Origin: Sulfurospirillum diekertiae
GTDB taxonomy: Bacteria > Campylobacterota > Campylobacteria > Campylobacterales > Sulfurospirillaceae
Direction: 5' to 3'
Length of the DNA: 64,000 nucleotides
Assembly (NCBI RefSeq): GCF_011769985.2
Contig: NZ_CP039734.2
Coordinates: 1,488,001-1,552,000 of the forward strand
Shown: positions 15,747-36,807 of the stretch, in pieces
How the letters are laid out: each line of letters opens with the position of its first letter
Position numbering within the stretch: the stretch's first letter is position 1
Position numbers and translations under genes: made by a program
Notes under the pieces: model-generated
The model's input: the letters and a program-made list of their open reading frames with translations, nothing else
What the model was told of the DNA's origin: nothing
Databases searched by the model: none

Positions 15747-15818
15747 GAAGTAAATGTAACATAATTTTATAGTGTAAGGCTTTTAGCCTCTATTTTAAAA
15801 AACAAGATTTTTGTGAAA

Positions 15819-15844
15819 AGCCTTACCTTTTTTGGGGTAAGGCT
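15819..15844 (-). terminator. Hairpin after the PpiC-type isomerase gene
   Basis: AGCCTTACC and GGTAAGGCT form a 9-bp perfect stem 15 bp past the stop of the minus-strand isomerase gene. The minus-strand T-run after it is short (TTTT); the longer T-run is on the plus strand, where no gene leads into it. Confidence 0.65.
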
Positions 15845-15858
15845 CTCTTTTTTTGGGG

Positions 15859-16672
15859 TTATTTAATGGTTACTTTTGCGTTTTTTCTAAGTGTTTGTGC
15901 TTTATCTTGTACTTGAATACGGAATTTTTCCATTTTCAAGCCATTTTCAATTTGTGGTTTTACTGTTTCAAATGTTGCTTTCTCAGCTGGTTTTGTATCT
16001 TCAACTAAGATAACATGGTAACCAAATTGTGTTTGAACAGGCGTTTTAGTAATTTCACCTTTTTTAAGTGCAAATGCTGCATCTGAGAAAGGTTTTACCA
16101 TTTGATTTGCAGCAAACCAACCAAGTTCACCGCCACCTTGACCGCTAGGTCCTGTAGATTTTTGTAGTTGCAAGCTCAACAAATTTATCATTGAGTTTTT
16201 GACCTGTCAATCCATCAAGTTCTTTGATAACATCTTTAGCTTCTTGCTCTGTTTTTACAAGCACGTGTCTTGCTTTAACGGTTGCTGGTTGCATAAATTT
16301 GTCAGCATTTTTGTCATAATAGTCTTTAACATCTTTTGGATCAACTTTAACAGCATCAAAGATTTTTTTCATCCAGACTTCAAGAGCAAGATCTGCTTTG
16401 ATTTTTTTCAAAGCTTCCGTATAATCTTTCTCTTTTTCTACACCACTTTTCATTGCTTCCGTAGTCAAAAGTTTACGCTCAACTGCTTGCTCAACAATTT
16501 TTTGTTTTGCATCAGCAGGAAGTTCTTCAAACTTTGCGCCTTGCATAGCACGCATAAGAACAGCAATGTCTTGTTCATTGACATCTTCACCATTAACGGT
16601 TGCATATGTTGTCGCATTTAAACTTACACCTAGTACTGCAGCTGCAATACTACTTAGAATAACTTTTTTCAC
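15859..16672 (-). pseudogene. PpiC-type peptidyl-prolyl isomerase (PEB4-like), frameshifted
   Basis: Periplasmic parvulin-type foldase related to Campylobacter PEB4 (Cj0596), which helps outer-membrane proteins fold. The N-terminal frame (16672 to 16145) has a Sec signal peptide, MKKVILSSIAAAVLGVSLNA, then the SurA-like helical part and KARHVLVKTEQEAKD. The C-terminal frame (to 15859) has STGPSGQGGGELGWF and FGYHVILVED, the rest of the rotamase domain. The frames join if one T is dropped from the T5 run at 16159-16163 (A5 on the coding strand); the gene would then be 813 bp, 270 aa. All else looks intact, so sequence error, recent mutation or slippage are all possible. Confidence 0.85.
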
Positions 16673-34811: not shown

Positions 34812-35615
34812 TTACTCCTTCACTTGATTAAAGAACTCTTCGAAATCACTCTCAATGCGACCAAAGCAGAAAAAATCTACTGTTGTATCTTCATCTTTGA
34901 GTTGTGCTTTTTGTTTGATTGCCATGCATCCTTGAGGAACAAAGCCATCAAAGTAGAGTCCATCGGTAATAGATTCTACAAAATGAAGCGTTTGAAACCG
35001 TTGGATAAACGCCTCATTTTGGAGTTCTTGTGCAATAGAGTACATTTCTTTCTCCCCTTCTCTCAAAATGGGTGCTTGGGAAAAAATAGCTGAGAGTTTT
35101 TCATGCAACTCATACAATCCTACTTGTGCTGAGATATCTTTGAGTTCGCGCATTTGACAGCCAACGAGTCGTTGTAAAAACTGCTCCACTTTAGCGTTAA
35201 ACTTTAAAACAACCTCATGTTCATCAAAGACTAAAATCAAAAAACGATTCTGCACCGTTACTAACTCCTTAAAAGGAGAATTGGCAGTTTTTTCAACAAT
35301 ACAAAAAAGATTGTGTTCGTGAGATGAGCGTTTAATTTTATCAATATTTTTAATTTCTAAAGGATGCGTTGGATCCAATTTTTCTTGCCAATATCCCATT
35401 AAAGCACGATGTGTTGGCACGCGGCCACCGCTTACATGTAATTGCTCAAGTGAACCCACATCAGAGAGCTTTTTAAAATAAATACGTATGGTTGAAGGAG
35501 AGATACCTAATGTCATCTTCATCTGTAATTCTAAAGATCCAATAGGCATTCTTGATTTAAGATAAGTTTGAATAATAGCATCTAAAATCAACTCTTGCTT
35601 CGAAAGTTTTTTCAT
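34812..35615 (-). CDS. hrcA: Heat-inducible transcription repressor HrcA
   Basis: Represses heat-shock operons by binding CIRCE. The start was placed at the ATG at 35615 (MKKLSKQELILDAI) with AAGAG eight bases upstream; the GTG three codons earlier lies inside the CIRCE half-site with no spacing for a ribosome site. The N-terminal winged helix (MPIGSLELQMKMTLGISPSTIRIYFKKL) is clear. At 267 residues it is shorter than Bacillus HrcA (about 340), as in Helicobacter and Campylobacter. One palindrome copy reads Leu-His-Val-Ser. Confidence 0.93.
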   Translation of the reverse strand: MKKLSKQELILDAIIQTYLKSRMPIGSLELQMKMTLGISPSTIRIYFKKLSDVGSLEQLHVSGGRVPTHRALMGYWQEKLDPTHPLEIKNIDKIKRSSHEHNLFCIVEKTANSPFKELVTVQNRFLILVFDEHEVVLKFNAKVEQFLQRLVGCQMRELKDISAQVGLYELHEKLSAIFSQAPILREGEKEMYSIAQELQNEAFIQRFQTLHFVESITDGLYFDGFVPQGCMAIKQKAQLKDEDTTVDFFCFGRIESDFEEFFNQVKE

Positions 35616-35617
35616 TT

Positions 35618-35644
35618 TTAGCACTCTTAATGTTTAATTGCTGA
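35618..35644 (-). promoter_or_regulatory. CIRCE operator (one degenerate half)
   Basis: TTAGCACTC is perfect, followed by 9 bp and AATTGCTGA, which matches 6 of 9 positions of GAGTGCTAA. It lies between the -10 box and the hrcA start and covers the expected transcription start, as expected for autorepression by HrcA. Confidence 0.8.
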
Positions 35645-35648
35645 AGAA

Positions 35649-35678
35649 ATTATACAACATTGAGTGTATTGATGTCAA
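35649..35678 (-). promoter_or_regulatory. Promoter of hrcA-grpE-dnaK
   Basis: On the minus strand TTGACA (35678-35673), an 18-bp spacer and TATAAT (35654-35649): both boxes match the sigma-70 consensus fully. The start point would fall in the CIRCE right half. So heat control here is by repression, not by an alternative sigma factor. Confidence 0.8.
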
Positions 35679-35780
35679 GTAGTAACTAAAAAGAGCATGG
35701 GTATAGGGTTTACATGTAAGGGCAAAGCCCTCTAAAAGGGAATAGTGATTTAATATGGAAAAGTTTAAAAGAAGTAGAAA

Positions 35781-35951
35781 TTAGCGAATGGGATGTTTAA
35801 GACGTTTTTTATTGCGCATTAAGAGAAGTTTGATGAAATGTTTGATTTCGCCTTTACTCTCTTTGAGCTTGGAGAAAAAAGTTTCTTTTTCAGTAATAGT
35901 AGTGAAGATGTCATTTAAAGCTTGTCTTTCATTTTGGGACAACGTACTCAC
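35781..35951 (-). CDS. Small basic protein of 56 aa coupled to an XRE regulator
   Basis: A short open frame starting with GTG at 35951 that overlaps the stop of the XRE gene (GTGA), with AAGGATGAAAA upstream as ribosome site. The product begins VSTLSQNERQALNDIF, has a predicted helical middle (TITEKETFFSKLKESKGEI) and ends in a strongly basic tail (MRNKKRLKHPIR). No family is recognised. Translation coupling to a regulator suggests a regulator/partner pair; a toxin-antitoxin pair is possible, but there is no toxin signature. Confidence 0.65.
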   Translation of the reverse strand: MSTLSQNERQALNDIFTTITEKETFFSKLKESKGEIKHFIKLLLMRNKKRLKHPIR

Positions 35952-36196
35952 TTTTCATCCTTTAGTTCATGTGCTATGCGTTGAATTAAACGCAAGGCAT
36001 CGCCCTCTTCCAGTTCACCAAGCATTTTAAAAATAGCTGATGCTGCTTGAGGTTGTGAATTACCAAGTTTCCAGTCTTGGTATGTTCGCATCGATACACC
36101 CAATTTATCTGCCATCTCACGCTGAGAAATCTTCTTGCCTAAAAATTTAGACTCAACAGCATTATGAAGGAGATTAAAAATATCGTTTGTTTTCAT
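35948..36196 (-). CDS. XRE-family helix-turn-helix regulator, 82 aa
   Basis: A small DNA-binding protein with a central HTH: KISQREMADKLGVSMRTYQDWKLGN, residues about 21-45, in the style of Cro/CI. The C-terminal helix (EEGDALRLIQRIAHELKDEK) probably dimerises. The upstream region has a TATAAT box (around 36227) in an AT-rich stretch with repeated TACATAAAT-like words that could be its operator. It is followed by, and overlaps, the 56-aa gene. Confidence 0.85.
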   Translation of the reverse strand: MKTNDIFNLLHNAVESKFLGKKISQREMADKLGVSMRTYQDWKLGNSQPQAASAIFKMLGELEEGDALRLIQRIAHELKDEK

Positions 36197-36446
36197 GTAT
36201 AGGATTCTAGCTAAGGCTGGTTTAATTATACATAAATACGATTATTTTATAAGTTATTATATCTAAAAAATATCATTTTAGTGTATTTTTACTACATAAA
36301 TTTGTTAAAAAATACTTTTATTTAAGTTTTTTACTCATTTAATGTTTATTTTTATACAGTTTTACGTATATTATATAGAAAAATATTGAAAGAGTAAAGC
36401 ATAAGAGTTAATTTAGATACTTAGATGTTAATGTGGTTAAAGCAAT

Positions 36447-36458
36447 TTTACATGTAAA
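36447..36458. repeat. TTTACATGTAAA copy in the 36197-36528 gap
   Basis: The 332-bp gap upstream of the XRE gene and downstream of rpsO is extremely AT-rich. Besides this palindrome and the rpsO terminator, I see no gene in it. Confidence 0.8.
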
Positions 36459-36492
36459 GAGGGGAAAGAAATGAAGGGTAAAAAGAAGAAAA

Positions 36493-36515
36493 GTAGGATG
36501 GAAATTCCATCCTAC
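36493..36515 (-). terminator. Terminator of rpsO
   Basis: GTAGGATGGAA and TTCCATCCTAC form an 11-bp perfect stem with a single-base centre, followed on the minus strand by TTTTCTTCTTTTT. It lies 14 bp after the rpsO stop. Confidence 0.9.
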
Positions 36516-36528
36516 TGTAAAGCACTGA

Positions 36529-36807
36529 CTATTTTTTATTATCTCTAATAGAAAGCTCTTTAATGATTTTGCTGTATGTTACAAAATCTTTACGTTTAAG
36601 ATATTGCATCAATCGTTTGCGTTGACCGACGAGTTTAAGAAGTCCTAGTCTTGAAGAGTGATCTTTTTTATTACTCTGAAGATGTTCTGTTAAATCAACA
36701 ATTCTTTTAGAAAGAAGCGCGATTTGTACCTCTGGAGAACCTGTGTCTCCCTCTTTTCTGCCAAACTGACTAACAATTACTTGTTTTTCCGCCGAACCTA
36801 AAGCCAT
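36529..36807 (-). CDS. rpsO: 30S ribosomal protein S15
   Basis: Binds the central domain of 16S rRNA early in small-subunit assembly. The 92 residues are slightly longer than the usual 88-89. The signature GSPEVQIALLSKRIVDLTEHL and the HSSRLGLLKLVGQRKRLMQYL segment are complete. AGGAGGTCATT precedes the ATG. It is a single gene with its own promoter and strong terminator. Confidence 0.98.
   Translation of the reverse strand: MALGSAEKQVIVSQFGRKEGDTGSPEVQIALLSKRIVDLTEHLQSNKKDHSSRLGLLKLVGQRKRLMQYLKRKDFVTYSKIIKELSIRDNKK

Follow-up and report, generated by a model that had tools for sequence, protein, structure and literature searches.

An XRE regulator gene and its small cationic partner form a probably self-controlling pair behind a helically phased array in Campylobacterales

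The window, the whole stretch of 64,000 nucleotides that was analysed, corresponds to positions 1,488,001-1,552,000 of a 2.74-Mb contig of Sulfurospirillum diekertiae. On its minus strand an rpsO-like gene, a hairpin, a 332-bp gap, a gene for an XRE regulator, a gene for a 56-aa protein (the partner), 156 bp and an hrcA-like-grpE-dnaK operon follow each other in this order. The gene names rpsO, hrcA, grpE, dnaK, HU, groESL and efp, as used here, are our provisional assignment from sequence and gene order. The features of the locus are:

34812-35624: hrcA-like gene, ahead of grpE-dnaK
35649..35678, minus strand: separate promoter-like sequence of the hrcA-like-grpE-dnaK operon, TTGACA/TATAAT with an 18-bp spacer (by eye)
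35781..35951, minus strand: gene of the 56-aa partner, its GTG start overlapping the XRE stop by 4 bp (GTGA); the N-terminal helix motif is conserved, the tail cationic
35948..36196, minus strand: XRE/HTH_3 regulator gene, 82 aa, ATG start
36197-36528: AT-rich upstream gap of 332 bp, from the XRE gene to the rpsO-like gene
36197..36386, minus strand: phased array of about nine degenerate 21-bp units, putative XRE operator
36204..36209, minus strand: -10 box TAGAAT, 7 nt ahead of the XRE ATG, predicted to give a leaderless transcript
36353..36370, no strand: TATAC-N8-GTATA, the distal palindrome, at -174 to -157 relative to the XRE ATG
36480..36516, minus strand: terminator-like hairpin with a T-rich stretch behind it, separating the rpsO-like gene from the module (by eye)
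36529-36807, minus strand: rpsO-like gene

Because of the terminator-like hairpin and the T-rich stretch, the two-gene module is probably a transcription unit of its own. The first-pass annotation had placed the pair apart from the heat-shock operon. In fact it lies on the same strand, 156 bp upstream of that operon, which has its own promoter-like sequence. A CIRCE-like sequence (TTAGCACTC) and HspR-like half-sites were also seen by eye ahead of the hrcA-like gene (window 35618-35680). The hrcA-like gene was missed by PF01628 (HrcA), which matched none of 24 Campylobacterales genomes, this one included; its product may be an HrcA that has diverged, or another regulator. With no match in any genome, PF01628 carries no weight for or against a replacement of HrcA, an idea that was also considered.

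The 56-aa frame had been proposed to be a real gene, and its substitutions bear this out. Across nine close species the pooled pN/pS was 0.070 for the small gene and 0.052 for the XRE gene, indicating the synonymous bias expected of coding DNA; within the small gene the ratio was 0.036 for the N-terminal codons and 0.084 for the remainder. Evolution is faster in the partners of paralogue B, one pair of which had a dN/dS of about 0.3. The overlapping antisense ORF of 80 aa has lost its start codon in five of the nine close species, and in another it is interrupted by a stop codon. The GTG start overlapping the XRE stop was confirmed together with its ribosome site, the sequence AAAGGA preceding the GTG.

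Coupling of the two genes was followed in two sets of loci, L031-L080 and L103-L182, which share some organisms and are therefore not independent. In the first set, 50 loci taken from a longer list of XRE matches in a 60-genome search, the partner lay directly downstream of XRE in 47; two of the three partner-less loci were contig ends and one was a divergent third XRE (L079). In the second set of 80 loci two were contig ends and could not be evaluated, and all 78 others carried the partner behind XRE. The strict N-terminal partner motif was found at 78/78 loci and at none of 499 control ORF ends, of which four had the loose form of the motif. The junction between the genes was a 4-base overlap in 49 of 97 distinct pairs, with a range of -41 to +6. 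L079 (G008 C1:1728675-1728890) belongs to a third, divergent XRE subfamily that had no partner at the one locus examined; weaker second matches in the phylum search also fell into this subfamily.

The XRE protein reached the curated cut-off of HTH_3 (PF01381) with 24.8 bits against 23, and 51 of the 53 aligned members matched this family at E<=0.01. (The alignments comprised 59 partner and 53 XRE sequences of 77 available rows.) Its closest named relative, at 100% identity, is from Sulfurospirillum diekertiae. The predicted structure has five helices (pLDDT 89). The fold search gave no Foldseek E below 0.2, and the best VIA Z was 5.6. When solved structures were searched by sequence, the best match (E 0.0052) was a flagellar-associated chain of 35 residues, probably a chance match.

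In the partner only E8, L12 and F16 are invariant among 59 members, the remaining positions evolving fast, and the shortest member has 38 aa. The window member was predicted to form one helix (residues 6-51, pLDDT 81.5, pTM 0.38). Of 96 distinct partners, 95 have a net positive tail beyond the motif (mean +8.3); the amphipathicity of the tail exceeded that of shuffled sequences in 73% (mean z 0.65, window member 0.4). The window partner matched no family in Pfam, NCBIfam or PHROGs at E<=1, known toxin families included, and the search of solved structures by sequence gave nothing below E = 7. Among the 59 members family matches were scattered and weak (best E 0.00086; 25 of 36 Pfam families listed). 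The module adds to Campylobacterales a conserved small-protein family whose window member has no counterpart in the libraries searched. Two origins or functions of the partner were considered and rejected. The likeness of LSxxERxALxxxF and KRLKHP to region 4 of RpoD prompted the idea of sigma-4 mimicry; Smith-Waterman comparison with the genome's own RpoD was not significant (p = 0.12 for the window member; mean z 0.63 over 96 partners, 12.5% of them below p 0.05). Derivation of the partner from XRE was likewise dropped: the two profiles are unrelated (hhalign probability 0.3%), and alignments of cognate pairs had a mean z of 0.5.

The order of an XRE regulator followed by a small partner is shared with the XRE-DUF397 pairs of Streptomyces (Scr1/Scr2), which are reported (PMC6262351) to act as regulator pairs after having once been proposed as toxin-antitoxin systems. 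The present partner differs in that DUF397 was neither matched by the window member in Pfam at E<=1 nor present among the 25 of 36 families listed for the 59 members. The phylum is also different, and the phased array and leaderless-type promoter belong to the window module.

The first-pass annotation had described a 332-bp AT-rich gap with repeated words. Length and words were as described, but it had gone unnoticed that the words form a phased, operator-like array. Of 128 module upstreams eight were too short to be used; among the remaining 120, 24 were left out for identity in their last 120 bases, leaving 96 distinct ones. Exact-word self-similarity in these peaked at lags of 10-11, 21, 31-32, 42, 52-53 and 63, with no peaks between, which corresponds to 10.5-bp helical phasing. 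The phasing extends from near the XRE ATG to about -190 and then fades, giving an array of ~190 bp. The mean phase score was 0.022 in the 96 upstreams (81% above 0.01) as compared with 0.001 in 195 controls (7%). Since the module upstreams, with an AT content of 0.81, are richer in AT than the controls, their own shuffles served as a second comparison: z exceeded 2 in 64% of the 96 upstreams and did not in 36%, the window module having a z of 4.7. When a 190-bp frame was slid along the 64-kb window, the highest scores came from frames starting at 36181-36221, in the XRE gap. The 21-bp unit is weakly conserved, with G and C concentrating about half a unit apart in the two Sulfurospirillaceae groups. 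The array is an unusually clean natural example of helically phased operator-like DNA. The second-best phased stretch of the window (about 15760-15990) consists of short G-rich repeated words (GGGGTAAGGCT-like) and is by eye unrelated to the XRE array.

The palindrome TATAC-N8-GTATA with its exact 8-bp spacer occurred in 62 of the 96 distinct upstreams, against an expectation of 0.04 computed from 588,601 bp of flanks; every other spacer from 0 to 20 was found in at most 2/96. This genome has two sites only, one before the module and one before its paralogue. Among 33 distinct sites the gene-side flank was phased (score >0.01) in 15 of 16 that belong to modules or orphan partners and in 1 of 17 others. 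Two orphan sites stand out, L190 being phased on both sides and L189 hardly phased, with a score that does not exceed 0.01; the sole phased site outside modules (G020 C6:54527, score 0.017) lies within an ORF. Only 5/17 upstreams of the f7-like group have the palindrome. Use of the palindrome as a genome-wide regulon marker was rejected: elsewhere in relatives it occurs at about background, and 16 of the 17 non-module sites lack a phased flank.

Instead of a protein-binding array, the phasing could represent the ordinary periodic sigma-70 signal of Campylobacterota in unusually AT-rich DNA. The promoter data of PMC3847290 describe, for C. jejuni, a sigma-70 signal of ~10-bp period near the start site (-7, -17, -27, -38). 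This signal may explain the proximal phasing, and among AT-rich controls (AT above 0.72, n=53; mean phase score 0.003) eight, or 15%, also scored above 0.01. It does not explain the distal phasing: the array reaches -190, the part from -190 to -60 scored 0.023 by itself as compared with 0.0005 in shuffles, an exact palindrome of fixed spacer stands at the far end, and phased flanks go with the palindromes of modules and with just 1 of 17 others. We consider the sigma-70 reading unlikely.

A -10 hexamer ending 6-7 nt before the XRE ATG was present in 64/96 modules and in 8/527 control ORFs, and Shine-Dalgarno words preceded XRE in 2/96 modules as compared with 54% of the controls; because the first ATG was taken as a guess at the start of each control ORF, the rates in the controls are lowered. 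The rule fails in the f7-like (3/17) and f10-like (0/7) groups. The combination of such a -10 box with the lack of a Shine-Dalgarno sequence is that of leaderless autoregulators, and judged by this sequence rule the XRE mRNA should be leaderless. The transcriptome study PMC3847290 reports poor conservation of leaderless status in this group: of 23 genes compared, one was predicted to be leaderless in all species holding it.

At E<=1e-8 the XRE profile had a match in 144 of 398 Campylobacterales genomes; the partner profile, at E<=0.01, had one in 156 of the 398, with about ten near the threshold. In a draw from the phylum 97/298 genomes matched; every genome matched or listed was of Campylobacterales, so that this fraction says nothing on other orders. 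Among the many Campylobacterales whose genomes hold the family are Sulfurospirillum, Sulfurimonas, Sulfuricurvum and some Campylobacter. The neighbours of the module vary by lineage: it stands before hrcA-like-grpE-dnaK, directly before grpE-dnaK, divergently, near groESL or before HU, and the paralogue B module stands beside efp. In many f7-like loci (L065, L131, L136-L140, L143, L145, L149, L151 and L176) the module directly precedes grpE-dnaK, and no hrcA-like ORF was detected between the two.

The recurrence of the chaperone operon beside the module in several families, in differing arrangements (upstream, directly before grpE-dnaK, divergent), might suggest that the module is a stress regulator that exists to control this operon. 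We regard this as distinctly improbable. In several of 13 loci the operon has its own promoter-like sequence (by eye), and the neighbourhood was therefore not read as function; in other families the module neighbours HU or groESL, paralogue B neighbours efp, and the only palindromes of this genome are those at the two module promoters.

Partners also occur alone. Two sister genera include eight genomes in which a paralogue-B-type partner has no XRE ORF ahead of it. By eye, efp-like upstream DNA was seen in six of the eight, as beside paralogue B. Each of the eight has GTATAAT, beginning 34-44 nt ahead of the start codon; the exact palindrome is present in seven, and a best-window phase score >0.02 in six. 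XRE-A is encoded elsewhere in seven of these genomes, the eighth (G030) being 81% complete. Because these orphans mostly keep the array in the absence of an adjacent XRE, the small gene looks like an output of the array. Two f4 orphans, which have neither palindrome nor array, come from genomes (100% and 80% complete) that yielded no XRE, a finding that also speaks against the sigma-70 reading. In G058 (100% complete) the partner is kept and no XRE was found at E<=1e-8. The f7 orphan L192 (G178) has no adjacent XRE apart from what may be a 17-residue tail, and it lacks the palindrome. Retention of the array seems to go along with retention of an XRE. Such orphan partners offer a ready comparison for the role of the small protein with and without the regulator. 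L192, L193 and L195 are partners without an adjacent intact XRE or palindrome, in f7 and f4 genomes in which no XRE was found.

The first-pass annotation had recognized the layout of either a regulator/partner or an antitoxin/toxin module. The former is supported by coupling in all evaluable loci and by purifying selection; the latter found no support, as the small gene was found without XRE and its window member has no family match. Both refuting conditions named there, homologous loci that keep XRE but lose the small frame and a lack of synonymous bias, were examined, and neither counted against the module. A toxin-antitoxin system, in which the basic helix would be a membrane- or nucleic-acid-active toxin and XRE its antitoxin and repressor, would agree with the layout, the gene overlap and the cationic, moderately amphipathic tail. 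HigA2 and HipB are among the weak fold matches of XRE, and PADLOC gave weak XRE matches to defence-associated models (24 of 53 members to PDC-M69A, best E 4.3e-4). Nevertheless this interpretation is very unlikely, because small genes persist without an adjacent XRE in the eight sister-genus genomes and without any XRE found in the two f4 genomes, and no close XRE relative appeared in viral, phage or plasmid collections: XRE, searched alone, had no match in viral contigs and phages and one distant match in plasmids. The window partner resembles no known toxin family, and the XRE tree, built on few alignment columns, largely follows taxonomy, with one branch separating paralogue A from paralogue B.

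On the sequence evidence the pair looks like a real and probably self-controlling unit. We interpret it as an autoregulated two-gene XRE/partner dosing module of Campylobacterales that is vertically inherited, and give this reading a probability of roughly 0.6. Nucleation of XRE dimers would take place at the distal palindrome (about -174 to -157). From there they would spread cooperatively on one face of the DNA, across some nine phased 21-bp units and as far as the -10 box, so that coating of the array would control, presumably repress, XRE's own promoter. The mRNA would begin at or beside the XRE ATG, and XRE would be made without need of a Shine-Dalgarno sequence; the small gene, with its own Shine-Dalgarno sequence inside the end of XRE, would be translated by coupling. 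Its product, a putative single cationic helix presumably docking through the E8, L12, F16 motif, would be the dosed output and probably feeds back on XRE. Since the partner occurs without XRE, it should have another target besides XRE. A stronger version is offered tentatively, at slightly less than even odds: that a one-sided XRE filament on the ~190-bp array, nucleated at the palindrome and extending as far as a leaderless promoter, serves only to dose a fast-evolving cationic single-helix effector which, with the operator, can outlive its regulator, and that such a system is spread through Campylobacterales and undescribed. A literature search returned nothing on the module, and the word undescribed is based solely on that search.

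SinI and SinR exemplify a small helical antirepressor beside an XRE repressor. A partner acting only on XRE, as antirepressor or corepressor, would break or build the XRE polymer in a feedback of the SinI/SinR kind. This explanation overlaps with the dosing module and differs from it by denying any other target; we judge it less likely than not. The coupling of the genes and the invariant helix-face residues of the partner are in its favour, as is the retention of orphan partners in seven genomes that still have XRE-A elsewhere. The ~57-aa helical partner adjoining an XRE repressor is a feature of SinI/SinR as well. However, the window partner follows XRE, shows no sequence relation to it and, unlike SinI, does not resemble XRE's own oligomerisation segment (hhalign 0.3%), and G058 (100% complete) has the partner and no detected XRE.

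Lambda CI and the controller proteins of restriction-modification systems are small HTH autoregulators with leaderless transcripts and two or three operators. They are fold neighbours of the window XRE, the best structural Z being only 5.6, and their two or three operators contrast with about nine phased units in the window. A multi-site operator in the same phylum is that of the Helicobacter pylori arsR promoter, where oligomerising Fur encases the start site (PMC5007355); oligomerisation of XRE on the window array would be a putative parallel. The two differ in that Fur, a metal regulator, belongs to another family, whereas the window has an 82-aa XRE, phased units of ~21 bp and apparent self-regulation.
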